Source: Caldinitratiruptor microaerophilus | Lineage (GTDB): Bacteria; Bacillota; Sulfobacillia; Symbiobacteriales; ZC4RG38 | Length of the DNA stretch: 64,000 nt | Reading direction: 5' to 3' | Assembly: GCF_025999835.1 (NCBI RefSeq) | Contig: NZ_AP025628.1 | Location: forward strand, 620,001 to 684,000 | In this document: piece by piece, positions 492-23,370 of the stretch | How positions within the stretch are numbered: position 1 is the stretch's first letter | Layout: each line of letters opens with the position of its first letter | Notes under the pieces: model-generated | Told to the model about the DNA's origin: nothing | Seen by the model: the letters and a program-made list of their open reading frames with translations, nothing else | Databases searched by the model: none | Position numbers and translations under genes: made by a program

Positions 492-801
492 GCAGGGTTC
501 CTGCCAGTGCGTGTGGTGGTTTCTACTGCCTGCACAGTTTTGGCGCGGGCGACCCGGAATCCTTTCCCGCAGGCATGAACGGCAGCCCGGCCGCACTTCC
601 CGCCTATCGGGCGGGGTTTTTCCCCACGGCGCCGGCATCTTGAGTGGAGCCCCGTCGGACCGACGCGAGAGGGATCGCTACGAAGCAGGGAGAAGGACAA
701 TTTCGCCAACCGATCGGCCAAACGCCCGCGCCGGGGCCAGTCGGACCAGGGAAGGTCCCGAACCTCATCGACGGCCGCACTTCCCAGTCGAGGTGAGCCA
801 C
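492..801. other. Intergenic region between divergent genes; one terminator-like hairpin
   Basis: About 310 bases separate the two divergent starts. The region holds a GC stem followed by a T run (listed separately) and two copies of a 14-base string, CGGCCGCACTTCCC, ending near 601 and 786. I see no convincing small gene here. Promoters for both neighbours should lie here but none stands out. Confidence 0.4.
599..621 (+). terminator. Terminator-like hairpin
   Basis: The stem CCCGCC (599-604) pairs with GGCGGG (610-615) around a 5-base loop and is followed by GTTTTT. No complete plus-strand gene ends just upstream, so this may act as an attenuator in the leader of the Mrr-type gene rather than as an end-of-gene terminator. 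Confidence 0.5.
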
Positions 802-1689: not shown

Positions 1690-1729
1690 GACCCGCCCCG
1701 CGGCGGACCGCTGACGGGGAGGGAGCGCC

Positions 1730-4849: not shown

Positions 4850-7117
4850 ATGACCGATGAGGTGGTAAAGTTGAAACCCCGACTGTCTCAGCGGAGCCGA
4901 CTAATCATCGCCCTTATCTATCTTACCGCTGGGTCCCTATTGGCGTGGGTCAAGCTAGGGCGATTTCCGGGTCTGGGAAGTTACGACGTGTGGTTTTGGT
5001 CTGGCTACGTTGTCATAGTCGTTGGGACGCTCTTGGACGCCCCTTGGTACACAAAGCCAATAGACGCGTTAACGAACGCGATTGGGTCTTTGATCGCCGC
5101 GTTAGGGCTAAACCCAGACACATCAGTTGCGGCGGGCGCGTTCGCCCAGAAGTTCCAGATTCTGGGCATTGCACTGTCTAGTGTCGGAATAATCATAGCT
5201 CTGACGGCAATATGGTATAAAGACTCGGAAAGCATGCGCCTACGTTACCTAGCGTTTATGGGGACAAAAATATGCGCTCAACTCGGAGCCCCGAGTATCA
5301 TGTTTGGGCCTATCATGCTTTCTTCACTAATATGGTCATTTTATAATCAGGTGGACACGTTAATTCTGATGACCATCGTCTTGGCGGTACTTCTGTTTGG
5401 CAGGCCTCTGGAACGTGGGTGGGGGTTCCTTTCGGAAGCATTCGGGAGGGGACCGGCCCTGTTGAGAAAGGTTGGGAAGCCACTGGCTTGGAACCATCCT
5501 GGCATAGTAGAGTTCGAGCTTGACGCGAGCGCTGCTGTGGCCCCCCGGGATGTTGTGGTTATCTGTGCACCCGGTCAGGAAGCTGAACTAGGAATAGTCG
5601 TGGACCTTTTCGTGTTGTCGGACAGGAAGTGGGGGAGGACCATTCTCACGGGGGTTCAACTGTCCAAAACGGACCTTCGATACAGTGTCTCTCCGGGAGA
5701 GAGTGACGTGGGCATCTTCAAGGTTAACCCCGCTCAGTTGCCGGAGGATGTCCGAGAGAGGTTGGGCGAGCACCCAATCAGTATAAGAGCCGACTCATTT
5801 CTGGGGTTGGTAAGCGACCAAACCGATATCCTTCACCTTGTCTTTGATCTGCTAACCCCTCATCCAGAACTGGCGGAGGGATCTCTTGTAACAACAGAAA
5901 TCAATAACGACCGTGTAGTCTACCAAATTGTAAATGCTACAGTTAAGGAGAGGGGTCTCGATGCACAAAGTGTTCGTGGAGTACTATCAGTTGAAGCAGT
6001 GAAACTCGGAAAGTGGACTGATGCTGGCCCTGAGCCGGTGAAGTGGGTTCCAAGACCTAATACACCTGTCTTCCTCGTACCACCCAAGGGTGCGGCTTTT
6101 GACCTTTCCACAGTCGGAGTCGTACCTCGTAGCAGCGTTTACGTCCGCCCGGATATAAATAGAATGGTACATCACAACACCGCGATCATTGGGGTTCTTG
6201 GTGCTGGAAAGTCTACGATTGCATACCAGATCATTCATCGGATGATTCGCGAGGGTATAAACGTACTCGTGATTGATATTACCGACCAATACTCGATTTC
6301 GCTTAGCCATCTGTTCCGCGAGGACGAAAACAGAAGCAGGACAACGAAGATTCAGATGGCAATTGCCCCCACAGTCAACCGTGTGGACCAGAGCCCTGAG
6401 CGCGGAGGAAACATAGTGGATTTCAGGCGGGCGCTGGCCGAGGAAATGAATAGTTTCATGGATGGCGAAGACCGTCTGTGGATCGTAAACCCCCAGCATT
6501 TTGATGTTACGATGCAGGAGGGACGACCTTCCGGTAGTGCTGCCGCTTTCCGCCATCTGAGTATGGTAGAGATAACAAAACACGTTGCGGAAGCGGCTCT
6601 CACAAAGGTACAAGCGGATGGCCTCTCGGAGAGTGCTAGACTGTGCATCGTGTTGGAGGAGGCGCATAGTCTCGTCCCGGAGTTCAATTCGGCTGCCAGC
6701 AAACAGGATCAGGAAGCCGCGGTTGGGACGGCCCGCGTAGTTATGCAGGGTCGCAAATACGGGCTTGGTTTCCTGGTCGTAACGCAACGTACGGCTAACG
6801 TATCAAAGAGTGTTCTTAACCAGTGTCACACGGTTGTGGCCCTACGGAACTTTGATCTCAGGGCGCAGGAATTCCTGGAGCCATACCTAGGCCCCCATTT
6901 CGTCAGAGTCCTCCCTACCCTGGAGCAGCATCATGGGATTGTCTATGGCCCCGGCTTTAACCTCCAGCAGCCGCTGCTGGTCAAGTTCTGGGATTATGAG
7001 GAATTCAAGAACGCCGCCCTGGAACAGTGGGGCTCCCAAATCCTAACGGAGCGGGGGGTAGGAGAGGCGGAGGTCGCAGAAGAGAACTTGTCGCTTGACG
7101 ACGAGGTTCCTTTTTGA
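4850..7117 (+). CDS. Membrane-anchored HerA/FtsK-like ATPase
   Basis: This 755-aa protein starts with about 190 residues rich in hydrophobic segments (for example LIIALIYLTAGSLLAWV and WSGYVVIVVGTLL), suggesting four to five membrane helices. A middle region of unknown type follows (about 210-430). The ATPase domain begins with the variant P-loop GVLGAGKST near residues 448-456. It continues with VLVIDITDQYS and has the Walker B LCIVLEEAHSLVP near 600. A sensor-like segment, GFLVVTQRTANV, comes later. This order fits HerA/DUF87 hexameric translocases. Membrane helices ahead of a HerA domain are less common and suggest a ring anchored at the cell membrane. Base composition is clearly lower in GC than the flanks, pointing to horizontal transfer. 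It lies in a defence neighbourhood, so a role in phage resistance is plausible but unproven. Confidence 0.8.
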   Translation: MTDEVVKLKPRLSQRSRLIIALIYLTAGSLLAWVKLGRFPGLGSYDVWFWSGYVVIVVGTLLDAPWYTKPIDALTNAIGSLIAALGLNPDTSVAAGAFAQKFQILGIALSSVGIIIALTAIWYKDSESMRLRYLAFMGTKICAQLGAPSIMFGPIMLSSLIWSFYNQVDTLILMTIVLAVLLFGRPLERGWGFLSEAFGRGPALLRKVGKPLAWNHPGIVEFELDASAAVAPRDVVVICAPGQEAELGIVVDLFVLSDRKWGRTILTGVQLSKTDLRYSVSPGESDVGIFKVNPAQLPEDVRERLGEHPISIRADSFLGLVSDQTDILHLVFDLLTPHPELAEGSLVTTEINNDRVVYQIVNATVKERGLDAQSVRGVLSVEAVKLGKWTDAGPEPVKWVPRPNTPVFLVPPKGAAFDLSTVGVVPRSSVYVRPDINRMVHHNTAIIGVLGAGKSTIAYQIIHRMIREGINVLVIDITDQYSISLSHLFREDENRSRTTKIQMAIAPTVNRVDQSPERGGNIVDFRRALAEEMNSFMDGEDRLWIVNPQHFDVTMQEGRPSGSAAAFRHLSMVEITKHVAEAALTKVQADGLSESARLCIVLEEAHSLVPEFNSAASKQDQEAAVGTARVVMQGRKYGLGFLVVTQRTANVSKSVLNQCHTVVALRNFDLRAQEFLEPYLGPHFVRVLPTLEQHHGIVYGPGFNLQQPLLVKFWDYEEFKNAALEQWGSQILTERGVGEAEVAEENLSLDDEVPF

Positions 7118-8018: not shown

Positions 8019-9362
8019 TCAGGGTGTAGGAGCCGGGGCGCGGTAACGCTTGGATGCCTCGTCGACGACGGGCGTGCGGCCGCGACCCGGCTCCTGGGCT
8101 GTCTGTTCGGCCCTCCGGCGAATGCTCGCCTCCACGCGGGCACGGTCGTACGGCTGGCCACTGCGGAGGACGGTGTACACGATGTCGGACATGCGACGAG
8201 CGACACGCTTGAGGCTCTCCAGCTTCGAGAGGCCGCGAGCCCGGCAACGGTCGTAGAAAGCCCTGGCCAGGGGATCGTGGCGCACGGCGGCCAGGGCCAT
8301 GAGCCACATCGCGCGCTTGAGACGGTGGTTGGAGCTCTTACGGGCTGCGTGCCGGACCCGCCCCCCGCTGCTGCGTGCAGCCGGTGCGGTGCCGTTGTAC
8401 TTGGCGAAGGCATGCCGGCTGGGGAAGCGGCGGATGTCACCGATCTGACTGACGACGGTGGCCGCCAGGGTGATCCCAACTCCGCACATGGCCATGAGGG
8501 ATCGGCCGGGTGCGGGAAGCAGCTCGTCGTCGAGCAGATGCTTCAGTCGCCCCTTGCTTTCGTGGATCTGCAGCAGTTCCCCGCACAGCTGCCCGATCAA
8601 CTCCGCCCGCAGGCGGTGCACCACCGTGGCCGGCTGCTCGCGAAGGCGGCACGTGGCCTCCAGGATGCGGCTGGCTTGCTGCTCCAGGGCCTGGCGGCTG
8701 GCTTCCCGGGAGCGGGGCCCCACGCGCCCTCCGGCCAACTCGCGCAGCACCTCGGCCAGTTCCGGTGCCGTGAGCCCGTTCAGCGTCTGGGGGTAGGGGA
8801 AGCGAGCAAAGAACCGCCAGGCCCACGGCCCCTTGATGTCGGAGAAGAAGGTTTCGTAGGTGTCCAGGTAGACCATGCTGAGCTGCAGGTGCAGCCGGTT
8901 CATCGCCCGCGTGAAGCGTTCAGACAGGTCCTGGAGCGTGCGCTCCGCTTCGCGCAGGGCAGCGGTTTCCTCGTGGGCGTCCGTGGCGTCCGGGAGGCGT
9001 TGGCCACGCCGAAGCACCACGGCGGCAATAGCCCGTGCGTCGATGACGTCGTCCTTGTCCTGCCCGTAGAAGTCCTTCTGCCGGTGGGTCCACAGGGGGT
9101 TGACCACGGTGACCCGCCGACCGCGGGCCTGAAGCACCTGGAGCAGCGCCTCGCCATACCGCCGGTGGTCCTCGAGACCGTAGACCACCTCGGCCTGGTG
9201 CTCCGCGGCCAGAGCCTGGACGTCGTCGTCGAGACGCTCGATGTCCTCGATCCGGTTTCGCAGCGTGCGGGTGAGCATCACGTGGTCGGGGTAGAGCACC
9301 GCTACAGCCTGGTGGGCCCGTTTCGCCGGATCAATGCCGACCGCCAAGGTACGTGACTGCAA
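8019..9362 (-). CDS. tnp: IS110-family transposase (DEDD_Tnp plus Transposase_20)
   Basis: This 447-aa protein appears intact. The N-terminal RuvC-like DEDD domain shows the first aspartate in LAVGIDPAKRAHQ, the glutamate in VYGLEDHRRYGEAL near residue 65 and the final aspartates in QDKDDVIDARAIAA near 106-112. The C-terminal Transposase_20 domain begins around residue 285 (LMAMCGVGITLAATVV), with FAKYNGTAPAARSSGG carrying the serine region used in strand exchange by this family. It continues with HRLKRAMWLMALAA. IS110 recombinases act with a non-coding bridge RNA made from the element's end, and the upstream leader here is long enough for one. The length is near the family norm (about 400-450 aa). 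No frameshift is visible, so the element may be active. Confidence 0.88.
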   Translation of the reverse strand: MQSRTLAVGIDPAKRAHQAVAVLYPDHVMLTRTLRNRIEDIERLDDDVQALAAEHQAEVVYGLEDHRRYGEALLQVLQARGRRVTVVNPLWTHRQKDFYGQDKDDVIDARAIAAVVLRRGQRLPDATDAHEETAALREAERTLQDLSERFTRAMNRLHLQLSMVYLDTYETFFSDIKGPWAWRFFARFPYPQTLNGLTAPELAEVLRELAGGRVGPRSREASRQALEQQASRILEATCRLREQPATVVHRLRAELIGQLCGELLQIHESKGRLKHLLDDELLPAPGRSLMAMCGVGITLAATVVSQIGDIRRFPSRHAFAKYNGTAPAARSSGGRVRHAARKSSNHRLKRAMWLMALAAVRHDPLARAFYDRCRARGLSKLESLKRVARRMSDIVYTVLRSGQPYDRARVEASIRRRAEQTAQEPGRGRTPVVDEASKRYRAPAPTP

Positions 9363-9657: not shown

Positions 9658-10710
9658 GACACCACCACGACCTACTTCGAGATCGAGGCGGAGGACGAGG
9701 AAGGCGAGGGCATCCGGCGCCGGGGGTACTCCAAGGACCACCGGCCCGACCTGCCCCAAGTGGTGATCGGCCTGGCGGTGACCCGGGACGGCATCCCGGT
9801 GCGGTGTTGGGTGTGGCCGGGTAACACCGCGGACATGTCGGTCCTCCACGAGGTCAAGCGGGACCTGAGCGGGTGGAAGCTCGGCCGGGTGATCACGGTG
9901 GTGGACCGGGGGTTCGTCTCGGAGGAGAACCTGCGGGAACTGCAGCCGGCCGGTGGGCACTACATCGCCGGCGAGAAGATGCAAAGCGGGAAGGCGAGCG
10001 TGGAGGCGGCGCTTTCGCGGCCGGGGCGGTACCAGCGGGTGCGGGAGAACATCGAGGTGAAGGAGGTCGTGGTGGGGGACGGGGAAGCCCGCAAGCGCTA
10101 CGTGGTGGTCCGCAACCCGTAGGAGGCGGCCCGGGACAAGGCGAAGCGGGAGGCGATGCTGCAGCACGTCGAGGAGGAGCTGAAGGCGATCGGGGAGCTA
10201 TCCGGTGAGGGCCACACCAAGGCGGCCTGCGAGTTGGTGGTGCACCCGGTGTATGGCCGCTACCTTGTCACCGACGCCAAGGGTCGGGTGCGGATCAACC
10301 GGGCGAAGATCCAGGAGGAGGAACGGCTCGACGGGAAGTACCTGGTGCGGACCTCGGACGACACCCTCTCGGCGGAGGACGTGGCGTTGGGCTACCGCCA
10401 GCTTGCCGAGGTGGAGGCCGCCTTCCGGACGCTGAAGCAGCGCCTGGAGTTGGGACCGGTGTACCACCGGCTGGAGCAGCGCATCCGGGCGCATGTGCTC
10501 CTGTGCTGGCTGGCGCTGCTCTTGATCCGGGTGGCGGAGGTCAAGACGGGAAAGACGTGGCGGGAGATCCGGTCGGCGATGCAGCGGATGCACCTGGGGC
10601 GGTTCGTCGGTGCGAACGGGGAGGTGTGGCAGCGGACGGAGACAACGGCGGAGCAGAAGCAGATCCTGACCGCGCTGGGGATCGGCGAACCGCCCCGCTT
10701 CTTGCAGTAA
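9658..10710 (+). pseudogene. IS1634-family transposase, 3' fragment with an in-frame stop
   Basis: From 9658 the frame gives DTTTTYFEIEAEDEEGEG, the first catalytic aspartate region of IS1634-type DDE transposases. It continues with VVIGLAVTRDGIPV, VWPGNTADMSVL and VVDRGFVSEENL (second aspartate region). A TAG at 10120-10122 replaces an expected glutamate codon in RNP-stop-EAARDKAKRE. The frame then continues to 10710 with YRQLAEVEAAFRTLKQRLEL, which holds the final glutamate region. With the upstream frameshift, the IS110 insertion and this nonsense codon, the transposase is dead. Confidence 0.8.
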
Positions 10711-10899: not shown

Positions 10900-13800
10900 C
10901 TAGTTGTCCTGGTGCTCTATGTAAGGCTGGACACGCACTCTCAGGAACGGACTGAAGTGTAGGCTTTGCAAGAGACAGTGGAACGGTGGCAGATCTTTGA
11001 TTAGCGCAGCTAGCCGCTCAGCCTCAGTCCCGGTGGTGCGGCCGAGGAGTGCCTTCACAATGTGCCGAATGTGGTCGTTTTCCGTGGTTGCGAAGTAGAG
11101 CTTAGTTGCCGCTGAACCCAGGATCACGTCCCGTAGGTCGCTCGCAAACTGGGTGGCGATGATCACCCCTAGGCCGAAGGCCCTGCCCTCTCGCATCAAG
11201 GGCTCTAGATACGGGGAATTGGCGATACGCCAGGCTTCATCTAGGACGAGGGTGCGGGACAACCGATGGGGTTGAGGCCTCTGGATCAGGTGGTTATACA
11301 ACCCCATGAGCAGGAACTCGGCGACGACGTTCTTCACCTCGTCGGATGGCAACTGACTGAGGCGAACCGTGGCAGCACTTTCGAACAGGTCCTCGAGGCT
11401 ACCCGCCTCTGCCCGGAATAGTTGCAGATCGAAGAGGGGTGAAATCCGGCCGACCAGTTCGTCGGTCCCCTTCATCTCCTGCAGTGCTTTCAAAACGTCC
11501 CGGAACGGTGGAATAGCGATGGGCCCACTCGGAACAACGGGGTGAAGCGGTATACCCTTGCTTAGGTATACCTGTTTCATAGCCTCTCGCAACCTGTTTT
11601 CCTGCTGCACACCGAGCCCGAAGACCCGCTGCAGGATCCCCGCGATCTTGTAGATGTGGCTTATGGCGTTGACAGTACCACTATGGGGGTCCGGAGGGAG
11701 GGCAAGGGGATTGAACGGCAGCCCGTTGGCTGCTACGTCGTACACCTCTAGATGTTCTACCTTAGCATAGTCGCGACCCGAATAGTCGTCCTTGAAGTCT
11801 AGGATCAGCGTCGGAAAACCGGCGCGGCGGAGCTGTAGCAGAATGCTTTTAATCGCCTGTGTCTTGCCAGTACCAGTAGCTCCAGTGATGATGATGTGCG
11901 GATTAGGAAGCGGATTGTCCGGCCGGTGTGGTTCGAACCAAGCCTGAACCGCTGTCGCTCCCCGCATCCCCTTACCAATAAAGACCCGTGGAAGCTCAGT
12001 GGGACCGAGATGGCTTGACGAGTGTTGCCCCGTACTCTGGATAGGTTCGGTTGAGTCATCGGTACCTTTTCCAGGCGTTACACTCAACTGATTCTCTCCG
12101 TCAGACGTCCCCTCTCCTTTACCCGGTCCTTTACCTTGGCTTTCTTTTTCCGAGTCATCTGTACGGGGAGAAAGGGGCGTTGCTTCGCCTTCCTGTCCAT
12201 ACGTCACGCTTTGCTCTGAAGGGTGAGGGGCCAGGACCTCCACGAGTTGCTCGTTTAACTGGACTAGACGAACGGGCGTTTGAGGTTGGCCTACGGTCTT
12301 AAACTGTCGGATGGGCTGATCCACCGTCTGACCAATAAGGACCATCGCTAAATTTAGTCTAATATCGACCGCCAACTCCCCATCGAACAAGCGATCGAGA
12401 ATCTTAGACCACGTCTTTCGTTGGTCTGAGGAATAGATGGCCTTGGAGATTTCGCGGTAAAAGTGCTCACGCAGTACCTCCCGGCGGGCGGGAGTTACCA
12501 AGAGTTCATTTTCTCGCTCCGAAGCCGATGCGAAAACCTCTCGCAGGGTCGACTCAGTGGCCAGCAACTGGTCGATGGCGGGTCCAGAGATCCAATCGCC
12601 ATCAATCTGAAATTCGGCGTTTCCATTGTCTATCGTCTTGACTTCTATCACATCAAGGCGGACCGAATCCTCCGCCAAAACCACACCGAGCAAATCAGCC
12701 CGGTGCCCATCCGAGCGTAGGCGAAGCCAGCGACGAGATTCCTCGCTGTCAAGACTGACTACCATCGCGTTTTCGGCCTGTTTCTTGTACCAGCGAGCAA
12801 CAATAAGTGTGCCCAGCAACCCTTTCACCCGGGCCGATTCGTCATTGGACCCCAGGTGAATCAGACCTTGGTCTAGAAGGTTACTTAGTTCCTCAAGCAA
12901 ACCGTCTAACTCGCCGTCCGTGACAGCCGTATTATAGCGGGTGACCACGTCCCGGAGAATGCGCCGGAAGCGGCCTGCCTGGTCGGTGAAGGCTGCGAGT
13001 TGCCGTGCCCCTTCCCTTGCTGTGGCAACGCGGAGCATGCCAAACTTCAGGTCACGATCAACATGGCGATCGGCGATAATCACCCACGGCGCTACTCCCG
13101 CTAAATGCCCCAATTGTTCGCGAAATGCCTGGTCTTGATGAGTAGCTACATAGGAAGGATGCGCGTTTTGGTCCAATTGAACGGCCACGTCGTAGTAGGC
13201 CTTAAACAGTCCGCCTGGAGCTGGCACGAGCTCAACCTGTTTTGTGTTCATTCGGTACTGGAACTTTCGCGGCTGGTAGAGGGGCTGGATTGCCTGCTCA
13301 CTGGTCCGGCTGCGCTGCGTTGCGCCTGGAGTTCGATCAAAGACCAACAGGACGTGCATGGGGAGATCCAATTCCCGCACCTGCGCAACCCAGTCCTCGG
13401 CTGCTGTTAGCACTTCCAAGGTGAAGGCTCGTTCCCGACCCACACCACGGAAGCGTTCGCCAATTCGTTCTTCATCGTCGTGGGATAGTTCCGCCGTAAA
13501 GAGCTCTTGCCCCTTGCCCTCGGTGGTAAGCACGGTCACGTGCGCGCCTTGGATTGTCCCCTCGTCCGCTAGATCACAGATACACTTGAGCAACTCCTGA
13601 CCAAGGGAGCGAGGGCCTACCAGTGCGACCCTGAGCCCATACCGGGCGTGTCGATACAACTGTACAAACTGGCGCAACCACTCGGCCACAGTCTCCATAC
13701 CGTCAGAACTATGGAGTCTGCCGGCCGACTCTTCATAATGGGGCAACGGCCCGATTCTCCCTTGGGCTGTTAACACCCTCGTGCCACTCCCAGTTATCCG

Positions 13801-15540
13801 GTTGGTGATACAGAGATTACTGAGGAAATTCGGCAATCGCAATGAAGTGTTTAGGATCAGTTCCTTCTCCATATCATCCAACCGGTCGACTTGTGTTTTC
13901 ACTAATCTGCAGAGTTCGGCGTAATGCCAAAGGTAGAGGGGATGGAGAGGGCCGAGCAAACCTGAGAAGCCTCGCGGATGCTTGACGACAATAGTATCAA
14001 TTTCTAAAACGCGGGCGAAGAGTTCCCGCACGTCCTCTCCATACTCTTCAAACAGCACACCGTATGCCCGATTGAGTAGGGAGAGGAAAGTGGCAAAGGA
14101 TTCAATGTAGTTATTCACCTGGTGAAGGTACTCGTCCTGTGCAAGGAGCAGCAAGGGAGAGGAGCAGAGAAGCGGGATAGACGGCACGAGCGCAGCGCGC
14201 TTGTCCATGTAGTCCCGATAAGCGTGGTGCAGATGAGCACCTGCTTCAACCTCGTGCATGTACTCCAGGTACTCCTCGACCTCGGTTCGCGTCCACTCAA
14301 GTCGCAACGAGTCAGGGGTCAGTTTACGCAAGGCTTCTGCGAGATGGGGTACGTCGCTTTCAATCAAGCCCCCGAGACGTGTCTCGGTAAAGAGGGCGGA
14401 GCAAACCGCCACGATCGCCGGATCGACCGTAAACACGACTTTTGCGGTCGAGTCCTGATCCTGGAGTCTGAATTCCTTGGGTCTGGGATCGTCCAACGGC
14501 AGAGATATGTTGACGCCTGTGAGTTTTTTCTGCGCTTCGGCCAGCAGGTCTTGTAAGAAGTCCGACTCGTCAGTTCCTGACAATAGCGCACGCAGGACGC
14601 GTTGATCTAGTTGCGATTGGCTTGTGCGAGCCAGCCGCGCGGCGGCGGGGCGCCATCGCCAGAGTTCTATCACGTCATCAAGAGTAAGCTGCGCGAAGCC
14701 CTGTCCGTTGGACTCGTAGAGTCCACGAATTAGCCGAAAGGTGCGCTGGAGCCGCGCCCTGGCCTCCGGGTTGTCGACGAGGCGCAGTGTCTCAGCAATT
14801 TTCTTACGGTCGCTCTCAGTCAACTCGGTGATCTTCCCCACAAACTCCCAATTGAGCTCTAAACGGCGGAGGATGTCCTTCTCCTTCGGATAATCAAAGA
14901 GATGGGGATCCGGCAATAGCCCGAGTCTGTGAATCTGTTTCGCAGCTTCTTTCACGTACTCCTGATACGGTAGTGACCGGAGGTTCACGTAATAGTCGAG
15001 CAGATTACCTAAGGAAACGCGAGGGCTCTCCTTCAGTATTTTCCACCACCGGGGTTGAACCTCGTTACCACCAGGTTCGTTCTGAAGTCGCTGGATCTCG
15101 TGTTCGCAGAGTTGTCCCTTCAACTTCGACGAAGTCAGCTGGTAAAAGTCATCAAACGAAGTTAGCTTGGCATGTTCGGAAGGGGCAAAGACGACAATAG
15201 CAGCTGATAGGGGAAGCGTATTCCGCCAGTGTTCTGCTTCCTCCACGGAACATACAAAGTTGTCGCCTAGCGCAAAACCGGCAGTCCGGGCATGCTGACA
15301 TAGGCGCTCTCGCTCGGTTCGCAACTCCTCCGGCGTGGGACAGTCGGGGATGACTGCCACGTGCAGGGGTAGCCCCTGTTGCAGGAGGCCACCCAACGTA
15401 TCGATGACGGAATGGTAGTTGATTCTCGGGATATCTTTGACCAGTAGGCGTATTGGAGGAGCGCTACGCTTGATAACGGCAGCTACCAATTCGGAAATTA
15501 TCGCCTGGGCTTCTTTCGTACTCAAACCGCTACCCCTCAC
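10900..15540 (-). CDS. DptH-like HerA ATPase with internal PD-(D/E)XK-like motif
   Basis: This very large protein is 1546 aa with a GTG start overlapping the stop of the upstream gene (GTGA, 15537-15540), so translation is coupled. The N-terminal 900 residues are of unknown type. Near residues 945-970 the pattern HRADLLGVVLAEDSVRLDV then IEVKT fits the D...ExK core of a PD-(D/E)XK fold. A low-complexity linker rich in S/T/G/E follows (about 1110-1180). The HerA-type ATPase has the P-loop IIITGATGTGKTQ near 1218-1226. After it come LILDFKDDYSGRD and LPFNPLALPPD, a combination I associate with DptH. The Walker B SRTLVLDEAWRIA is near 1433, and GLGVIIATQFASDLRD follows. DptH is the helicase/translocase of phosphorothioation-dependent restriction. 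No dnd modification genes are in the window. Base composition is lower in GC than the surroundings. Confidence 0.75.
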   Translation of the reverse strand: MRGSGLSTKEAQAIISELVAAVIKRSAPPIRLLVKDIPRINYHSVIDTLGGLLQQGLPLHVAVIPDCPTPEELRTERERLCQHARTAGFALGDNFVCSVEEAEHWRNTLPLSAAIVVFAPSEHAKLTSFDDFYQLTSSKLKGQLCEHEIQRLQNEPGGNEVQPRWWKILKESPRVSLGNLLDYYVNLRSLPYQEYVKEAAKQIHRLGLLPDPHLFDYPKEKDILRRLELNWEFVGKITELTESDRKKIAETLRLVDNPEARARLQRTFRLIRGLYESNGQGFAQLTLDDVIELWRWRPAAARLARTSQSQLDQRVLRALLSGTDESDFLQDLLAEAQKKLTGVNISLPLDDPRPKEFRLQDQDSTAKVVFTVDPAIVAVCSALFTETRLGGLIESDVPHLAEALRKLTPDSLRLEWTRTEVEEYLEYMHEVEAGAHLHHAYRDYMDKRAALVPSIPLLCSSPLLLLAQDEYLHQVNNYIESFATFLSLLNRAYGVLFEEYGEDVRELFARVLEIDTIVVKHPRGFSGLLGPLHPLYLWHYAELCRLVKTQVDRLDDMEKELILNTSLRLPNFLSNLCITNRITGSGTRVLTAQGRIGPLPHYEESAGRLHSSDGMETVAEWLRQFVQLYRHARYGLRVALVGPRSLGQELLKCICDLADEGTIQGAHVTVLTTEGKGQELFTAELSHDDEERIGERFRGVGRERAFTLEVLTAAEDWVAQVRELDLPMHVLLVFDRTPGATQRSRTSEQAIQPLYQPRKFQYRMNTKQVELVPAPGGLFKAYYDVAVQLDQNAHPSYVATHQDQAFREQLGHLAGVAPWVIIADRHVDRDLKFGMLRVATAREGARQLAAFTDQAGRFRRILRDVVTRYNTAVTDGELDGLLEELSNLLDQGLIHLGSNDESARVKGLLGTLIVARWYKKQAENAMVVSLDSEESRRWLRLRSDGHRADLLGVVLAEDSVRLDVIEVKTIDNGNAEFQIDGDWISGPAIDQLLATESTLREVFASASERENELLVTPARREVLREHFYREISKAIYSSDQRKTWSKILDRLFDGELAVDIRLNLAMVLIGQTVDQPIRQFKTVGQPQTPVRLVQLNEQLVEVLAPHPSEQSVTYGQEGEATPLSPRTDDSEKESQGKGPGKGEGTSDGENQLSVTPGKGTDDSTEPIQSTGQHSSSHLGPTELPRVFIGKGMRGATAVQAWFEPHRPDNPLPNPHIIITGATGTGKTQAIKSILLQLRRAGFPTLILDFKDDYSGRDYAKVEHLEVYDVAANGLPFNPLALPPDPHSGTVNAISHIYKIAGILQRVFGLGVQQENRLREAMKQVYLSKGIPLHPVVPSGPIAIPPFRDVLKALQEMKGTDELVGRISPLFDLQLFRAEAGSLEDLFESAATVRLSQLPSDEVKNVVAEFLLMGLYNHLIQRPQPHRLSRTLVLDEAWRIANSPYLEPLMREGRAFGLGVIIATQFASDLRDVILGSAATKLYFATTENDHIRHIVKALLGRTTGTEAERLAALIKDLPPFHCLLQSLHFSPFLRVRVQPYIEHQDN

Positions 15541-17006
15541 TCCACAAGAACTATTGTCGTACCATCAGCGTAAGTATGGGCGTAGCCTATGTCTTCTAGA
15601 TGCCGCTTAAGCAACTTCACGTTTTGGCGCAACTCATCTTCGTCGACCGGTGTGGGTAACCCAAAGACGTATGGCAGGAGATTGTTACGTCGGATGACAT
15701 CGTCGTCTTTTTCCTGCCCCACGACAACCCCGAACTGTGACCGCCATTGATCGAGGAGTGCAGGGAATTCAACCGGTTCGCCCTGGTCGACCGTGGCGAT
15801 GACCAGTACCTCTAGGAAATCACTGGTCACCTGATAGCGTTTCCGCTCGGACCGGTTGCCCCAGGGACCGACAAAACCTGCCCGACGGCCGAGTTCTTTC
15901 AAAAAGCCCATAGGACTACCCGTTCTACTCTCGAGTCCTTGATCGACGACGCTACGTACTACGGCATCGGCGACGGAATAACCTTCGGACTGGCGTAGGG
16001 CTATGAACCGCTGAAGCAGGCGTTCCCGGTTTTTTTCCTCTCCTGCTAACTGCGTGAGAAATGCTCGGGCGTCGTCATCACTAGTGGGAAGACTCCCTTC
16101 CGATTCAAAAGCCACTTTCACTCGATAGCGGAGGAATTGCTCAACAGCTTGGCCAGCAGCGCGGAATGAAGCGTGGCTAGCGATGGCTACGCTTCGTAAC
16201 GTGCCTTCACTTACATCGAAGAGTATCGGAGGTCGGGCTGCTTGCTCGTCGCTCTTAGCTGTTTCGACCCATCGGGTGATAAGGTGAAGGAAAGTGGCAA
16301 AAGAACTCAGAAGCCCCAGTCGCCGCAGGCCACTTAGTTTGCTCCGACGGCGCCGTTCGAATTGAGCTAAGCGGTCAAAGGCAGCTCGGAGGCCGCGCAT
16401 AATTGGGGAATCAAGGGATTCTACTGCTTCCTCAGACGTTGAATCGGGTCTCCACTGGCTGCGCTCCAGCAGCGGCCATGCTAGCGTGGACCAGGGGTCA
16501 GTGTTGTCCTGTAATACCTCTAGCAGCCACGCGACGGTAGGACTCCCCGCTGCCCCCCGCCCAGCGGTTAGCAATCGGTATAGAAATCTACCGACCCCGT
16601 TGTGGGACCGGTCGCCGGTCACCGCCCGCTCGTTGGCGAGGGTAAACGAGGATTGATCGCCCTGCTCATACACTGCTCCGTCCGCCCCATAGGTGGCTTT
16701 CAGTAGTCTGCGGAAGTCCTCGAAGCGGGCCTGTTGTTGGGAAGTGGCTACGTTAGGCCATAGTGTGGAGTATTCTTCCAGCAGGGCATTCGATGGGTTT
16801 CGCTCCTCGTCAAATCCGGCCTTTTGCTTGCGCACCCACCACACTGCCGTCCGGTTCAACGGTCTCGTGTCATAGTAGCCGCCTAAACAGGCCCGGCATA
16901 GGCCGTTCACGATGTGGACTGGCTTAATAGAGTTATTTGTCGGTGTGTAGCCGAGTGTTTGGTATATGTCTTTAAAAATCTGCTCGATCCCATCCTGACG
17001 AGCCAT
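15537..17006 (-). CDS. Middle gene of the Dru/Dpt-like operon, DptG-position protein
   Basis: This 489-aa protein starts at an ATG at 17006 and lies 24 bases after the upstream ATPase gene. Its stop overlaps the start of the HerA gene. I do not recognise a catalytic motif. The protein is mostly helical-looking with many charged residues (for example FERRRRSKLSGLRRLGLLSS) and ends in a compact domain with RYQVTSDFLEVLVIA, LLDQWRSQFGVVVG and LEDIGYAHTYADGT. Size, gene order (ATPase, this gene, giant HerA ATPase) and a C-terminus of similar style agree with DptG of Dpt restriction systems. The assignment rests mainly on position and should be tested by profile search. No membrane segment or signal peptide is seen. 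Confidence 0.7.
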   Translation of the reverse strand: MARQDGIEQIFKDIYQTLGYTPTNNSIKPVHIVNGLCRACLGGYYDTRPLNRTAVWWVRKQKAGFDEERNPSNALLEEYSTLWPNVATSQQQARFEDFRRLLKATYGADGAVYEQGDQSSFTLANERAVTGDRSHNGVGRFLYRLLTAGRGAAGSPTVAWLLEVLQDNTDPWSTLAWPLLERSQWRPDSTSEEAVESLDSPIMRGLRAAFDRLAQFERRRRSKLSGLRRLGLLSSFATFLHLITRWVETAKSDEQAARPPILFDVSEGTLRSVAIASHASFRAAGQAVEQFLRYRVKVAFESEGSLPTSDDDARAFLTQLAGEEKNRERLLQRFIALRQSEGYSVADAVVRSVVDQGLESRTGSPMGFLKELGRRAGFVGPWGNRSERKRYQVTSDFLEVLVIATVDQGEPVEFPALLDQWRSQFGVVVGQEKDDDVIRRNNLLPYVFGLPTPVDEDELRQNVKLLKRHLEDIGYAHTYADGTTIVLVE

Positions 17007-17030
17007 ACTTGCTTACCCCTTGCTCCGCTT

Positions 17031-20000
17031 CTAGAACTGATACGAGGAGTGTGAGGACCGCTGGACCTTAAAGACTGTACTGAGGCCGTGTTTTATGCTC
17101 TGAGCCGTAACAGTGTGGATTGGCTCACTCGTGGACACGACACGGCGTAGGTCGTCGATAAATCGAGTGATCCGCCTGGTGGATGAACGGTTCCAAGTTG
17201 GCTCGATAAACCCCCGGGTGGCATCCTGGAGGGTCAGGTAAAGTTCCACATCCACCAAAAGCGTGGCGCGCTTTCCGAGGCTATCTCGCTCCTTGGACGC
17301 TACTATAAAGTGCTGGGGTAAGAATGGAAGGCCTTCTCCCATCCATGCCTGCAACCAGGGAGCCGGCTTGGGAATAGCGATTTGTAGGCGATCGAGGGAA
17401 ACGTAACTGGTAGCAACGAAAACGTCTGGCGCCTTGGCATCGTAGCGGTGACTGGTCCAGAGGTAGAGAATATCATCCTTATGCTCGTCCCAATTCGGGA
17501 CGAAGAACCGATTGAGCGCCAGGACGATGCTACGGAGCAGGCCGGCCACGTTGGTGTCGCCCTGGGTCAAGAGTCTGTGAAACCGCACGAAATCCTGGGG
17601 CATCATCTTAAGCAGCGAGTCGCCGTTTACATGTTCGAAGTAAAACCGCCGTTTGAGTGATCGAAAAAGGGTTTCCTGGTGGTCGGAGGGAGCACTCTGT
17701 GGAATCGGTGGGCTTCCGTTTTGCAACCAATCCTCGGACCTAGTCTGCCCTGTCCAGAGAGCTTCGTCGAGCCGAGGGTGGGTCACTACTGCGGGGTCAA
17801 AGAACGATCGGAGGGCTTCAAACAAAGGCCCATCCCCTGAGAAGGCCAAGTTGTAGTAATGAAGATCACAGTTACCTTGGGAGCGCTCACGGGTCAGGCG
17901 ATCCTGTCCACCGGTGAGCAGATAGGCGACGAAACCCACTAGTTGCCGCATCGTCACATGCAGTCCCTGTCGACCAAGGGCCTCGAGGAGGTCACAAAGC
18001 CGCTCCTGTACCCGTAGTTCCATGAGGCGCTGCCGGTTCTTCAGCATCGGGTCCAAGTGTGAAAGGCCCTGATAGAAACGGTCATTAGTCAACCGGGCGA
18101 TGACTGCCTTTACCACTGCTGGCGCCAGGAGGTTGCGGTGATTCAGATCGATAACCTGAACGTTCTCCTGGGGGGGCGCAGGACGTTCATCGTCAAAGTA
18201 ATATAACGCCTCTTTGACCTGCCGCCACGCCTCTCTCAGTGGAGGGAAGTCGGGGGCTACCCCGAGGAGTTTGTACAGTGGAAATTCGTTAATCGCCAGA
18301 CAGAACGGTCGCCCTTCTGAACGTGCGAGTTTCCACTGCCTAAGGATCTCCTCATCGGGCACTGCGTTAGCGTCGGTAATCACGATGGCGCCTTCGGCTT
18401 CCAGCGATGGCCGCAACCGTTCGATTAAGTGGGTTTTCCCGTCTCCTGGGTTACCCGTCACGATGATGTGCTTATTCCGACCGCAGGCCTCAAGCACGCA
18501 GTTGTCGATGGTATCAAAGGGTACATGGATCCAGTTCCGCTCATCTTCAGTTAGGTGATCAGAGTAACTGCCGATGCTACGGTACAGGTGGCGGACAAAT
18601 TCGCTTCCTTGAGGCCGCCCTGACGGTTCCTGCTGGCTCGCCAGTGCCTTCGCCTCAGTCTCAAGTTCTGCCAAGAAAGTGCGTTGATTGGGCTCTGCCA
18701 CTAGTTCTTGACTCAAGGCAAACTGCTCCGGCCGGAAGGAAGCAACTTTCGAAAGCACCTCCTGGCCCTTTTCGTGGGAAATGCGACTTGCGAGCCAACG
18801 CTGTAGCCAATAGTTAGCTATTTGACGAGTTCGCTCCTTCGGTTGGTCCATCGGCAGGAGGTAATTCAAGTGATCTTCTTCACACCGTAGGACGGCCTCG
18901 CTATTACTAGCCAAGAACGCACCATAGATGATTCGTTGGTCAGCATGCTGTAGGAAGAGGTCAGAATTAAGACCCAGCGCGTCGAGGCCCGCACGTAGTT
19001 TGCGTAACTTAGGACTATGGCCTTCACCAAAGATGTGGTTTACATTTCTCATCCCTTTAGCCGCTTGGTCCACTCGGTACAAGGCTTCTGCCGCCTCCGT
19101 TGAGAAGTGGACCGTTCCGTAACTGTTCGTATAGCCCAACTGCTCTAAGGTCAATAGAGCGTCTCCGGTTCCGCCGACATACCGAACTGGGATTCTCAGA
19201 CGGTTATATTGGCTGGAGCCTACGGCATAAAGGCTGGTGGTACCGATGAAGGCCAGATCAGCGGGTCGCACCACGGGTTCACCTTTCATGGCTGAGGCGA
19301 TGTAACTGACTTGCCCGGAATAACGATCGCGGTAGTCGGCCCAGACTTCTGGGGAGAGCATTAACATGCTGACCAACTTGCCTCCAAGCAGGTAAGTATA
19401 CGGTGGGATTGCCCCACACACCGTCAATTCCATCATATTAGTGCCGACCCGTTCCCTCTTCATCGCCGCTATCGCTAGGGCAATGGCCCGCCGCCCTGAC
19501 TCGTTTTGTAGTAGTTGACGTATGGCCGATGAAGGATTTTGCAACAGACTGGTCTGACGAAACAACTTGCGGGCAAATAAGGCATCAGCAAGAGTCCTTG
19601 CTCTTTTATAGCGGTACAGCTGGGTATCGCTTAGCCGGCGCCAGTCGACTTTCTCGAGACGTCCTTCGGTCGCATCCTGGAAGGCCTGCTTTAAAAGAGT
19701 GATTTCTTCGTGATTGCCTTGCTTTAGGTCAAGCCGCCGTTGGTTCGCACTCTGTTCAGCGATGGCGCGTAACTTATTGATTATCTCGTCGGTAGGATCA
19801 TCAAGCGCAGCAACCTCTTTAGCATCGTCCAATAATCCGTCGAGTCGGATGCCATCAATGGCCTGAGTGATTACTCGCTCCATCGCCATCGCTAAGCGAA
19901 TCAGGCGGTTTTCCAAGTCTTGCCTGATCTGCACCCCCTTGGCTGGGTTGAACTTCGCAGCCTCTTTCGCTGCTTGCTCCTGCCTGAGTATGAACTGTCT

Positions 20001-20810
20001 CAGTTCCTCTACGCTCCATAGCAGCCTCTTGTCGCGGGGTGTGAGTTGCATGGGGGCGTTCCCGAGGGCGGCTATACCGATAATCGCTTTGTTGGGAGTA
20101 GCTAGATCACGAACGAGGTAAAACATGTTTCTCCCTGGCTGGCTCTGGTACGGAATCGACCAGTAGTGGCGGAAATAGCGCCAGATGTCCTGTAAGCGGA
20201 GTCCGGTAACGTCATCGCGGGCTGCTGCCTCAACCAATTGCAGAGACGGGCGGATGATTTGCCGCTCGACCAAAGTTGCAGGCCGCTCCTGGATCGGGAT
20301 CGCCAGAACGTCCCCCAACCGGCGTGCCAACTCTGCCCCGTTGGCAAGAAGTTTTAGTACCCCCCGGCGTTCCATAGCGCGGATAAACTCCGATGTCGCG
20401 GGTTCATTGAGTTGCAGTTCGCGAGCGAATTGATAAGACCGTCGAACTGCATGTTTCGCTTTGGCCGCATCGCTCTTGTCGGTATGTGAGACAGGAGGTG
20501 CGACCTCGAGTTGCCCTTCCTTCAACGTAAACTCCCAGCCCTGCGCCGTTAGGTCGCGCACCAGCAGCAAAGCGGCTAAGTATTTACGCGTAGGCAACAA
20601 CTCCAACTCGGTTGTTCCGCGACTCTCCAGTTCCCGTATATCAAGTCGCACGCGGGCGATCTCGGAGCGAACGATCTCTGGGTTGTTACTGGCGATAAAT
20701 TCCATCACCGTGCGCTGTAGGCGTTCCGTGTGTTCTTCCGTAAGCGTAGGCGCGAATACTCTAGGACCAATAATGGGAGCCTTACTCATCGACATCAGCT
20801 TCAACTCCAT
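17031..20810 (-). CDS. DruA (DUF4338)-like region fused to a DptF-like P-loop ATPase
   Basis: First gene of the operon, 1259 aa from the ATG at 20810. A TTG at 20834 and an ATG at 20795 with GGAG nine bases upstream are alternatives. The N-terminal half resembles DUF4338/DruA proteins. It has LQDIWRYFRHYWSIPYQS, PGRNMFYLVRD and IIGIAALGNAPMQLTPRD near residues 205-255, VGTNMMELTVCGAIPPYTYL and GGKLVSMLMLSPEVWADYR near 450-490, and FGEGHSPKLRKLRAGLDALG near 590-610. DruA is the hallmark protein of Druantia anti-phage systems. The C-terminal 520 residues form a P-loop ATPase: HIIVTGNPGDGKTHLIERL near 790, then CLAINEFPLYKLL near 839. Its size and order match DptF, whose P-loop also lies close to its N-terminus. 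The fusion reading is an inference. The two halves have no visible linker stop and the frame is clean throughout. GC content is near 54%, below the flanks. Confidence 0.75.
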   Translation of the reverse strand: MELKLMSMSKAPIIGPRVFAPTLTEEHTERLQRTVMEFIASNNPEIVRSEIARVRLDIRELESRGTTELELLPTRKYLAALLLVRDLTAQGWEFTLKEGQLEVAPPVSHTDKSDAAKAKHAVRRSYQFARELQLNEPATSEFIRAMERRGVLKLLANGAELARRLGDVLAIPIQERPATLVERQIIRPSLQLVEAAARDDVTGLRLQDIWRYFRHYWSIPYQSQPGRNMFYLVRDLATPNKAIIGIAALGNAPMQLTPRDKRLLWSVEELRQFILRQEQAAKEAAKFNPAKGVQIRQDLENRLIRLAMAMERVITQAIDGIRLDGLLDDAKEVAALDDPTDEIINKLRAIAEQSANQRRLDLKQGNHEEITLLKQAFQDATEGRLEKVDWRRLSDTQLYRYKRARTLADALFARKLFRQTSLLQNPSSAIRQLLQNESGRRAIALAIAAMKRERVGTNMMELTVCGAIPPYTYLLGGKLVSMLMLSPEVWADYRDRYSGQVSYIASAMKGEPVVRPADLAFIGTTSLYAVGSSQYNRLRIPVRYVGGTGDALLTLEQLGYTNSYGTVHFSTEAAEALYRVDQAAKGMRNVNHIFGEGHSPKLRKLRAGLDALGLNSDLFLQHADQRIIYGAFLASNSEAVLRCEEDHLNYLLPMDQPKERTRQIANYWLQRWLASRISHEKGQEVLSKVASFRPEQFALSQELVAEPNQRTFLAELETEAKALASQQEPSGRPQGSEFVRHLYRSIGSYSDHLTEDERNWIHVPFDTIDNCVLEACGRNKHIIVTGNPGDGKTHLIERLRPSLEAEGAIVITDANAVPDEEILRQWKLARSEGRPFCLAINEFPLYKLLGVAPDFPPLREAWRQVKEALYYFDDERPAPPQENVQVIDLNHRNLLAPAVVKAVIARLTNDRFYQGLSHLDPMLKNRQRLMELRVQERLCDLLEALGRQGLHVTMRQLVGFVAYLLTGGQDRLTRERSQGNCDLHYYNLAFSGDGPLFEALRSFFDPAVVTHPRLDEALWTGQTRSEDWLQNGSPPIPQSAPSDHQETLFRSLKRRFYFEHVNGDSLLKMMPQDFVRFHRLLTQGDTNVAGLLRSIVLALNRFFVPNWDEHKDDILYLWTSHRYDAKAPDVFVATSYVSLDRLQIAIPKPAPWLQAWMGEGLPFLPQHFIVASKERDSLGKRATLLVDVELYLTLQDATRGFIEPTWNRSSTRRITRFIDDLRRVVSTSEPIHTVTAQSIKHGLSTVFKVQRSSHSSYQF

Positions 20811-21159
20811 CACTCCGCGTGGTCTACACGTCAAACAAATACGCCAAAAAACAGCGCTGGCTAAAAACCTCGTCGAATGTGAACCTCTTTCGCCGCGCGG
20901 ACGAGTCCCGCTCCTCTACATCTCGCCTCGGGGGATCACTGTATTCGTTCACATTTCGGCTAACCACTTCCAGTTTACCACGGAATACCCCATTAGTATC
21001 GCGGCCCGTAGGGGACAGGCCTACCGGAGGTCTATGGGTGGGCGGCGATGACGTCTCGTCCCCCCTCGCTCCAGAGACAAGGTGTAATTTAACCTGCTCA
21101 CCGGTCCGCTCGTTCCACTACTCGCCGCGCCGGCGAAGGCGGTGCTGCCCGGACTCCGG
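20811..21159. other. Promoter region of the Dru/Dpt-like operon; inverted repeat
   Basis: This stretch carries no gene. It holds an imperfect inverted repeat (listed separately) and is relatively AT-rich at 20980-21000 and near 21080. The operon promoter should lie here on the minus strand, but I could not pick -35/-10 boxes with confidence. Confidence 0.4.
20874..20958. promoter_or_regulatory. Inverted repeat upstream of the Dru/Dpt-like operon
   Basis: CGAATGTGAAC (20874-20884) and GTTCACATTTCG (20947-20958) are near-perfect inverted copies 62 bases apart. The left arm is 64 bases upstream of the chosen start at 20810. They could be paired operator half-sites for a repressor or form a long-range hairpin in the leader. 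No regulator gene lies next to the operon. Confidence 0.4.
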
Positions 21160-21395
21160 TGGGCGCCCCGGGGTCGCGGAGGTGCCACAGGACTACCGGG
21201 CGCGCATCGACATGGAGTCCCCCACCTCGGCCCCGAGCAGGTGATCCGGGCGCTACACGCGGCCTTTCCCCGCGAAGCTCATCGCCGTGGCCGTGGGCGC
21301 GTACAAGATGGCCACGGGTCAGGTGTGGCATAGGACTGTGTTCGGGAGATCTAAGAGCCGAACGGGCTCTCGTCGATGGGCATCGGTCGGGATCA
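21160..21395 (+). pseudogene. Relic duplicate of the acetolactate-synthase-like gene
   Basis: This stretch aligns with nucleotides of about 22765-23005 in the gene downstream. The longest shared run covers the codons for the segment around AVDVGAHKMATGQVW, with only one difference over 38 bases. It also shares CGCGCATCGAC and GGGCTCTCGTCGATGGGC. Small deletions break the frame, so it is a dead partial copy. Confidence 0.75.
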
Positions 21396-21774
21396 CTCGC
21401 ACCGTACGCCGTCTCGTACTCAGCCCCGTCCCAATCGGATTACACTGTTCGCGCGGCGGCTCTTCGCTCCGCCGCATCCGATTGCCGGCGCACCGTACGC
21501 TTGACCTGGACCTTGGCGCCAGTGGGTGTTCCGGACCTCTATTGTCTCATGCGTCAGCCGACCGGGATCCCGCCCACTGCGCCACTGCAGCGGCCCGGGC
21601 TGTTCACCGTTACGCTACCCGGCGTTTGTTCCAGGGTTCGCACGAATCGCGTTCAGTGGCCTAACCTCCTGCCCCATCGTTCGTACCTGCCAGGCACTCT
21701 CGCATCCGGGGCGAATCCTCCATCACAGTTACGCACTGAAGTGCTGAGTGGGCATCGAACGGAGGCCGAAGCGA
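21396..21774. other. Intergenic region with no supported gene
   Basis: Short open frames occur but none has a ribosome binding site together with recognisable protein features. Apart from the GGAGG at 21761-21765 serving the next gene, I see nothing specific. Confidence 0.4.
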
Positions 21775-23370
21775 ATGACAACCGTCGCACGCTGGATCGG
21801 TCGCCGGCTCAGGGAAGCTGGCATCCGGCACGCGTTCGGGCTACCGGGCGGCGAGGTGGTCGAGCTCATCGAGGGGCTCCGGCAGGAGGGCGTGGAGTTC
21901 ATCGTCACCCGCCACGAGGCGGCGGCGGCATTCATGGCCAACGCCTACGGTCAGGCGACGGGCCGGCCGGGCGTCTGCATCGCCACCCTCGGGCCCGGGG
22001 CGACGAACCTCGTGACCGGGGTGGCGCACGCGTACCTGGACCGGGCCCCGGTCATCGCCATCACGGCGCAGCTCCCGGACGCCAAGTACACCATCGCCAC
22101 CCACCAGGCCCTGGACCTGATGGCGCTCTACCGGCCGATCACGAAGTGGCAGGCCCGGATCGACCCCGGGAACGTGAAGGCCGTGGTCGAGCGGGCGCTC
22201 CGGGTGGCGACGCAGGAGCGCCCCGGCCCGGTCTACCTCATGCTGCCGTCGAGCCACGCCGCGGCGGAGGTTGACGACCGCCCCTACCCGGCGCCCGAGG
22301 TGCCGGCGCGGGGCGGATCGGCTGCTACGGTCGCCCCGGAGGCGATCCGGGCGGCGGCGGAGCGCATCGAGCGCGCCCACCGGCCGGTTCTCCTCGTGGG
22401 CCTGAGCGCGGCCCGGGCCGGCGCCTCCGGCCAGGTGGTGGCCCTCGCGGAGCGCCTCGGGGCGCCGGTCATCGTCGGGCCGAAGGCGAAGGGCACCTTC
22501 CCGGAGGACCACCCGCTCTTCACCGGCACGATCGAGATGCTGGGCACGGACGTCCTCTTCGACCTGATCGCCTCGAGCGACCGGGTGATCGCCGCCGGCT
22601 TCGACCCGGTGGAGCTCGACAGGGACTGGACGTTCGACGCGCCGGTGCTGAACGTCGACACCGTCCCGGCCGACCCCTACTACCCGGTCGACTTCGACCT
22701 CACCGGGCCCCTCGTCCCGACCCTGGCCGCGCTGGCGGAGGCGGTGCGGCCCGGGGCACGGTGGGCGCTGGAGGAGGTCGCGGAGGTGCGGCGGCGTCTC
22801 CGGGCGCGCATCGACGTGGAGGTGCCCGGCCTCAGCCCCCAGCAGGCGATCCGGGCCCTGCAGGCGGCCTTCCCCCGGGACACGCTCATCGCCGTGGACG
22901 TGGGCGCGCACAAGATGGCCACGGGTCAGGTGTGGCAGAGCACGGTGCCCGGGACGTTCTACATGTCGAACGGGCTCTCGTCGATGGGCTACGCCTTCCC
23001 GGCGGCGCTGGCGCTGAAGCTCGTGCACCCGGAGCGGAAGGTGGTGGCGGTGGCGGGCGACGGCGCCTTCGCCATGAGCATGGCCGAGCTGGAGACGGCG
23101 GTGCGGGTGGGGCTGGGGGTGACCGCGGTCGTCCTGGTGGACGGTGCCCTGAGCCTCATCGAGATGGCCCAGGAGCGCCGGGGCTACCCGAGCACGGGGA
23201 CGCGGTTCGGCAACCCCGACTTCGCCGCGGTGGCCCGGGCGTTCGGGGTCGAGGCGAGGACGGTCCGCACGCCGGAGGAGGCGGAGGTGGCCTTCGCCGA
23301 GGCCGCCCGGGCGGACGGGCCCTTCCTCGTCGCGGTGCACGTGAACCCGGCGGGGTACCGGCTGAAGTGA
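21775..23370 (+). CDS. Thiamine-diphosphate-dependent enzyme, acetolactate-synthase-like
   Basis: A 531-aa member of the ThDP enzyme family with all three domains in order. The N-terminal PYR domain shows HAFGLPGGEVVELIEGL, the catalytic glutamate in FIVTRHEAAAAFMANAYG and GVCIATLGPGATNLVTG. The central domain starts near residue 190 (RPVLLVGLSAARAG). The C-terminal PP domain has SNGLSSMGYAFPAALALKLV and the cofactor motif VVAVAGDGAFAMSMAELET. The ATG at 21775 is chosen because GGAGG lies nine bases before it; a GTG at 21748 would add nine residues. The gene stands alone with no small regulatory subunit, so a catabolic 2-oxo-acid decarboxylase/synthase is as likely as branched-chain amino acid synthesis. 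The exact reaction cannot be read from sequence. Confidence 0.85.
   Translation: MTTVARWIGRRLREAGIRHAFGLPGGEVVELIEGLRQEGVEFIVTRHEAAAAFMANAYGQATGRPGVCIATLGPGATNLVTGVAHAYLDRAPVIAITAQLPDAKYTIATHQALDLMALYRPITKWQARIDPGNVKAVVERALRVATQERPGPVYLMLPSSHAAAEVDDRPYPAPEVPARGGSAATVAPEAIRAAAERIERAHRPVLLVGLSAARAGASGQVVALAERLGAPVIVGPKAKGTFPEDHPLFTGTIEMLGTDVLFDLIASSDRVIAAGFDPVELDRDWTFDAPVLNVDTVPADPYYPVDFDLTGPLVPTLAALAEAVRPGARWALEEVAEVRRRLRARIDVEVPGLSPQQAIRALQAAFPRDTLIAVDVGAHKMATGQVWQSTVPGTFYMSNGLSSMGYAFPAALALKLVHPERKVVAVAGDGAFAMSMAELETAVRVGLGVTAVVLVDGALSLIEMAQERRGYPSTGTRFGNPDFAAVARAFGVEARTVRTPEEAEVAFAEAARADGPFLVAVHVNPAGYRLK

Follow-up and report, generated by a model that had tools for sequence, protein, structure and literature searches.

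A DruA-FGH operon in Caldinitratiruptor microaerophilus as a candidate DndFGH/SspFGH restriction subtype without phosphorothioation genes

The restriction modules DndFGH and SspFGH cut DNA without phosphorothioation (PT) marks. The operon described here belongs to an FGH clade that points to the DruA protein as the missing control by which FGH systems without such marks would spare their host, in a way that can be tested directly. The operon lies in a 64,000-nucleotide stretch of DNA, referred to here as the window, that covers positions 620001-684000 of the single-contig 3.6 Mb genome of Caldinitratiruptor microaerophilus. Between positions 10900 and 20810 of the window, the minus strand carries three intact open reading frames (ORFs) in the order DruA-F fusion, G and H. 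The fusion gene (17031..20810, minus strand) encodes 1259 amino acids (aa) from an ATG, with an alternative TTG start at 20834, whereas the G gene (15537..17006, minus strand) encodes an SspG/DndG-like protein of 489 aa and the H gene (10900..15540, minus strand) a DndH-type protein of 1546 aa. G and H overlap by 4 nucleotides (nt) and F and G are 24 nt apart, which makes the arrangement operon-like and agrees with a previous sequence-only reading of this DNA, in which three tightly coupled genes had been recognized. The interpretation developed here is that DruA-FGH would be a distinct subtype of DndFGH/SspFGH restriction, in which a dedicated partner, DruA, makes the control or self-marking decision, most likely by acyl transfer. 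We consider this reading to have an even chance of being correct.

The first half of the fusion protein (residues 1-705; 18696..20810, minus strand) is a member of the long DruA family, as its earlier naming as DruA/DUF4338 had proposed. Residues 59-705 match the 675-aa DruA1 model of PADLOC (E 1.2e-153) as well as the PF14236 DruA family (E 1.8e-32), and the AlphaFold2 model of this part, built from a 75-sequence alignment, reached a mean predicted local distance difference test (pLDDT) score of 92.3. Foldseek alone found no significant match for this model. The fold assignment comes from a second look with VIA-align, in which GNAT-fold proteins, mostly acetyltransferases, made up almost the whole of the top 50 rows; the best row had a Z score of 9.7 and a root-mean-square deviation of 3.0 Å over 146 aligned residues. 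The predicted GNAT-fold core extends over residues 184-656 (18843..20261, minus strand), with a helical insert at about 257-458. This agrees with the description of DUF4338 as a GNAT domain by Rakesh, Aravind and Krishnan (2024; PMC10853773).

All 23 residues checked in DruA (23/23) are identical in 75/75 sequences, in the FGH context and in the context of DruE and MzaB alike, and the invariant polar residues among them suggest a conserved, apparently intact active site; K478 and E596 are examples of invariant residues of DruA. With its modelled GNAT fold, this part of the protein is more likely to be an enzyme than the reader of the target signal that the sequence-only reading had tentatively seen in it; DruA is probably a GNAT-fold catalytic protein. 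Alternatively, it could act as a sensor or adaptor, in which a non-catalytic GNAT fold binds a ligand or a phage component and signals through F to the H nuclease. The fusion of DruA immediately before the F NTPase is in line with such a role, and so is its beta4-alpha3 region, which reads PPYxxLLGGK in place of the canonical GNAT motif RxxGxG. However, the many polar residues that stay identical in both gene contexts fit a catalytic protein better, and a sensor is unlikely.

The second half of the fusion (residues 740-1259; 17034..18593, minus strand) is a P-loop protein of the DndF/SspF type. Residues 828-984 match SspF (E 2e-12), the Walker A motif TGNPGDGKT (18432..18458, minus strand) is identical at 8/9 positions in 46/46 sequences, and the Walker B position (A-x-N) holds asparagine in 46/46. 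An intact Walker A combined with asparagine in Walker B is the hallmark of the DndF P-loop protein (PMC10853773), and the F part has both. Moreover, G matches SspG (E 1.3e-15). In known modules of this kind, G is described as a triple winged-helix protein. The earlier naming of a DptF-like part and a DptG-position protein holds at the level of the family and needs refinement within it, as F and G are nearer to SspF and SspG than to DndF and DndG; the H ATPase is of the DndH/HerA type by its profile matches. Sequence searches of solved structures gave only P-loop matches for F and were uninformative for DruA, for G and for the N-terminal region of H.

The DndH profile matches H only in its C-terminal ATPase (residues 1168-1470, E 3.3e-34), which supports the DptH-like HerA ATPase recognized before; the whole HerA/DndH-type domain comprises residues 1165-1546 (10903..12048, minus strand). 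The N-terminal region is common to 40 loci, and the AlphaFold2 model of residues 1-1165 has a mean pLDDT of 78.5. Within it, residues 606-855 (12976..13725, minus strand) are predicted to form a degenerate methyltransferase domain of the Rossmann type, which aligns with methyltransferases at a VIA-align Z score of 13.9 over 177 residues and in which the S-adenosylmethionine-binding and catalytic motifs are eroded. In DndFGH/SspFGH modules, SNF2-like, beta-sandwich and target-recognition domains would be expected in the N-terminal part of H; the model spans this region, and matches to the methyltransferase domain fill its list of fold matches. A PD-(D/E)xK nuclease motif follows (D949, E966-x-K968 and Q991; 12568..12696, minus strand), whose four residues are identical in 40/40 loci; the nuclease assignment comes from this motif and the secondary structure prediction rather than from a match of folds. 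The order of a dead methyltransferase, a nuclease and a HerA/FtsK ATPase is that of DndH in PMC10853773, and the domains of H follow it. The swapping of HerA and FtsK ATPases in H, published in the same paper, matches the distribution among DruA loci: the ATPase is HerA in the window, in its relative L041 and in a proteobacterial group, and SspH-like FtsK in most other loci. Judging from this anatomy, F-G-H would bind incoming DNA, translocate along it and nick or cut it, as SspFGH and DndFGH do.

The arrangement is not restricted to one genome. Bacterial and archaeal genomes were surveyed with a profile of long DruA, and the best 80 of 205 stretches correspond to 79 distinct loci, among which there are at least two near-copy pairs (L085/L087 and L086/L090). 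These relatives were found by an alignment-based profile scan; a single-protein scan of genome contigs gave none. F is fused to DruA in 27 loci and encoded by a separate gene directly downstream of it in 24, that is, in 51/79 loci altogether, and this recurrence means that the juxtaposition is not due to chance. G and H are also present in 47/51 F-bearing loci, the remainder being mostly cut by contig ends. The F-bearing loci span ten phyla, haloarchaea among them. Among these loci, the closest relative of F, G and H of the window is locus L041 from an Acidimicrobiia metagenome-assembled genome (MAG), with 43, 38 and 35% identity, respectively, and several loci tie as closest for DruA at ~40% identity. 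In 26 of the 79 loci, DruA is accompanied by DruE and/or an MzaB-like ATPase instead of F; on a tree of 75 DruA sequences, this context requires 2 label changes, compared with 22.5 in shuffles.

DruA and its partners F, G and H are co-inherited, even across deep divergence. Over 35 loci, pairwise distances between DruA proteins correlate at 0.954 with those between F proteins, at 0.971 with those between G proteins and at 0.981 with those between H proteins. This is about as high as the correlations found within the F-G-H trio (0.971-0.986), and the best of 999 permutations stays below 0.27. Additionally, an F-profile search was made in genome samples from four phyla, with close F defined by E<1e-50. 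In 12/12 close-F loci, DruA is fused to F or lies directly upstream of it; this count includes the window and three search centres, with 8 of the 12 loci independent of these, and it also includes a broken DruA gene in G1006 and a locus cut at a contig end in G445. Among remote F loci, DruA occurs in 0/18, and SspB/C/D-like genes stand beside F in 7/18. Within one FGH clade, which extends over bacteria and haloarchaea, DruA is a constant feature and a PT writer is very rare.

These counts bear on a proposal made in PMC10853773 for the N-terminal domains of DndF, according to which they are co-effectors. Applied here, FGH would be the main restriction arm, and DruA would serve as a suicidal back-up that acylates tRNA or protein of the host. 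That paper names GNAT/DUF4338 together with HEPN, NERD and kinase domains as DndF fusions, and toxin GNATs, e.g., AtaT, appear among the structural matches of DruA. Nevertheless, the presence of DruA in every close-F locus is unlike that of an occasional add-on, and in 24/51 F-bearing loci it is a separate gene; in addition, the divergence of DruA parallels that of F, G and H even between distant loci. A co-effector role is thus possible but doubtful.

The distribution of PT writers is the second part of the evidence. DruA occupies the position that the PT writer SspBCD has in other FGH operons, and no SspB, SspC or SspD was found in any DruA locus, within the DNA around those loci. DndC exceeded its cut-off in 2/54 DruA-FGH genomes. 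Strong SspD (profile PDLC02782, E<1e-80; PDLC02785 represents SspE) was detected in 1/55 DruA-FGH genomes, whereas 5/5 SspBCD-FGH control genomes gave one. The one DruA-FGH genome with a strong SspD is G480 (L185, L221), in which DruA-F-G-H is found together with SspBCD on another contig, where the latter adjoins an MzaB-like ATPase.

The same holds for the genome of C. microaerophilus itself. The window contains no dnd genes, as had been noted from its sequence, and the single contig has no DndC, a single gene of the PAPS (phosphoadenosine phosphosulfate) reductase family that matches PF01507 strongly and, for the SspD profile, only a weak match (E 5.6e-8) located elsewhere. If the operon belonged to an ordinary Dnd/Ssp phosphorothioation restriction system, with its writer genes elsewhere in the genome, the homology of F, G and H to SspF, SspG and DndH would be expected. 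However, the results for its own genome, together with the lack of a writer in nearly all related systems, make this explanation highly improbable, and an undetected PT writer was rejected.

What DruA contributes can then be considered. DNA that carries no PT is damaged by SspFGH, and cells in which SspBCD is missing are harmed by it (PMC8092258), which implies that an autonomous FGH needs some control. DruA would give the control that PT marks supply elsewhere, namely a self/non-self or licence-to-cut decision; an enzymatic role of this kind is favoured by its position in the PT-writer slot, the clade without a writer, the co-inheritance and the invariant polar residues. Most likely, DruA would transfer an acyl group onto a macromolecule; the candidate of greatest interest is DNA, on which the group would be a self mark. 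As DruA is kept in place of sulfur-marking genes in relatives from about ten phyla, the system may distinguish its own DNA from foreign DNA by an undiscovered mechanism. In a more specific version of this control role, DruA would be a GNAT enzyme that modifies DNA with an acyl-type self mark. This would constitute a third chemical form of FGH restriction-modification beside double-stranded DNA PT (Dnd) and single-stranded DNA PT (Ssp), and the same mark writer would operate in Druantia I; we regard this version as tentative and rather unlikely. Mom of phage Mu would be a functional parallel for a DNA-modifying DruA.

Several points weigh against a control or marking role. We know of no modification step in Druantia I-like loci, which also contain DruA, and GNAT folds act on many substrates. 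Some remote FGH operons (L188 and L189) show no PT writer and no DruA either, so a dedicated marker is not indispensable for FGH, and such operons weaken the assumption that FGH always needs a writer. The idea that DruA substitutes for SspBCD everywhere was softened for the same reason. Many host genomes are incomplete MAGs, in which the absence of PT writers is not strict. Finally, phages often carry DNA-modifying enzymes, and there was no match to DruA among 50,697 phage records. Only 7 contigs of IMG/VR contain DruA, two of them with DruA-F-G-H complete within the stretch covered and one with truncated DruA-F-G; a phage-borne anti-restriction function of DruA was rejected on these counts.

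The other machinery with which DruA is associated deserves attention as well. In the haloarchaeal loci L028, L032, L053, L094, L095 and L216, DruA-F-G-H stands back to back with a divergent operon that encodes DruE (PADLOC DruE1, E 0), a DruD-like protein (E 7e-6) and a CoiA-like protein. Judging by gene order, haloarchaeal DruA is placed between the two machineries as if it worked for a Druantia-like machine and a Dnd-like machine at once. In L079, Druantia I-like and DndFGH-like genes are neighbours in a second, independent setting: a remote F-G-H operon adjoins a pair of MzaB-like and DruA genes, with DruE nearby. Druantia and Dnd/Ssp, which are filed separately, are thereby connected via one common enzyme-like protein. 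In the C. microaerophilus genome, the search for DruE gave only a weak local helicase match (E 4.8e-5), and no match to DruB, DruC or DruD was found among the proteins of the operon; Druantia proper was rejected as an identification because DruE is absent from this genome.

The related loci show further variation. A gene of the SfsA family (PF03749) is present near H in 25/51 F-bearing loci (e.g., L034:17673-18353 and L045:20153-20848), mostly directly downstream of H and mostly in Bacillota, and it may encode an accessory nuclease. In a 1472-aa ORF at L117:9827-14245, DruA is joined to a remnant of F and the last part of H, apparently through a large internal deletion of the operon. In L035/L057 (G039), a complete DruA-F-G-H operon with its SfsA gene has, past the latter, a second DruA gene that stands alone. 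At L029:4955-9691, a TmtA-like protein (PADLOC E 5e-262) is encoded beside a Hymenobacter DruA-F-G-H operon, whose H gene is apparently interrupted.

The surroundings of the operon indicate how it may have reached its present place. The operon block has a GC content of 55-56%, compared with 67% for the window as a whole; along 11-21 kb the values are 0.53-0.58, against 0.65-0.75 in most of the flanks. An IS110-family transposase (8019..9362, minus strand; PF01548/PF02371) flanks the island, and a broken DDE transposase, consisting of two partial ORFs that match PF01609, lies directly downstream of H (9760..10710, plus strand). Directly upstream of DruA-F, a decayed duplicate of a thiamine-pyrophosphate (acetolactate-synthase-like) gene (21097..21381, plus strand) repeats 22699-22989 with 79-90% identity; its parent gene is found at 21748-23370, and the copy forms the right edge of the low-GC island. 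The low GC, the transposases on the left and the decayed gene copy on the right fit horizontal acquisition, so that the island was probably acquired in this way, in keeping with the mobile defence system suspected by the sequence-only reading. The same broken transposases and decayed copy might suggest that the genes are a decayed or chance juxtaposition without function. Yet the three ORFs are intact, their catalytic motifs are conserved and the gene order recurs in ten phyla, which leaves this explanation next to no weight. Elsewhere in the window, a HerA-type ATPase gene (4850-7117, plus strand; 755 aa, PADLOC HerA E 5.6e-24) with a GC content of 0.53 possibly belongs to another defence system, and 490-3193 (plus strand) contains a Mrr-type restriction endonuclease gene and, after it, an ORF whose matches are ParE-toxin-like and UvrD-helicase-like.

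Comparison with known systems places DruA-FGH between several of them. As in the DndFGH systems of PMC10853773, there is a three-subunit logic, with the hallmarks of DndF, the layout of H with swapped HerA/FtsK ATPases and a DUF4338-DndF fusion. That paper lists "GNAT (DUF4338)" among the N-terminal fusions of DndF and describes standalone DndFGH, so the sequence-only reading, to which no described system joining DruA to DptFGH was known, was not right on this point. Nevertheless, an occasional co-effector fusion is presented there, whereas here DruA is a constant, co-inherited partner of one FGH clade and, in about half of the F-bearing loci, a separate gene in the place of SspBCD; moreover, Druantia is not mentioned in that paper. 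DndFGH combines nickase and translocase activity, according to PMC11662687. The likeness to SspABCD-SspFGH (PMC8092258) lies in F and G, which match SspF and SspG, and in the SspH-like FtsK ATPase of most relatives; unlike that system, DruA-FGH has DruA instead of SspBCD or another PT writer, and the ATPase of H in the window is of the HerA/DndH type. Druantia type I also has DruA, and long DruA occurs with DruE and an MzaB-like ATPase as well; the genome of the window differs in this respect from its haloarchaeal relatives, which do have a divergent DruE operon beside DruA-F-G-H. To our knowledge, no role has been assigned to DruA in Druantia I. A full-text literature search, in which coverage of subscription journals was thin, returned no paper linking DruA with DndF, SspF or DndH. 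The DUF4338-DndF fusion and standalone DndFGH are therefore already published (PMC10853773), while what is new is DruA-FGH as a coherent, co-inherited subtype, in which DruA is often a separate gene, PT writers are nearly excluded and an enzyme-like protein is held in common with Druantia.

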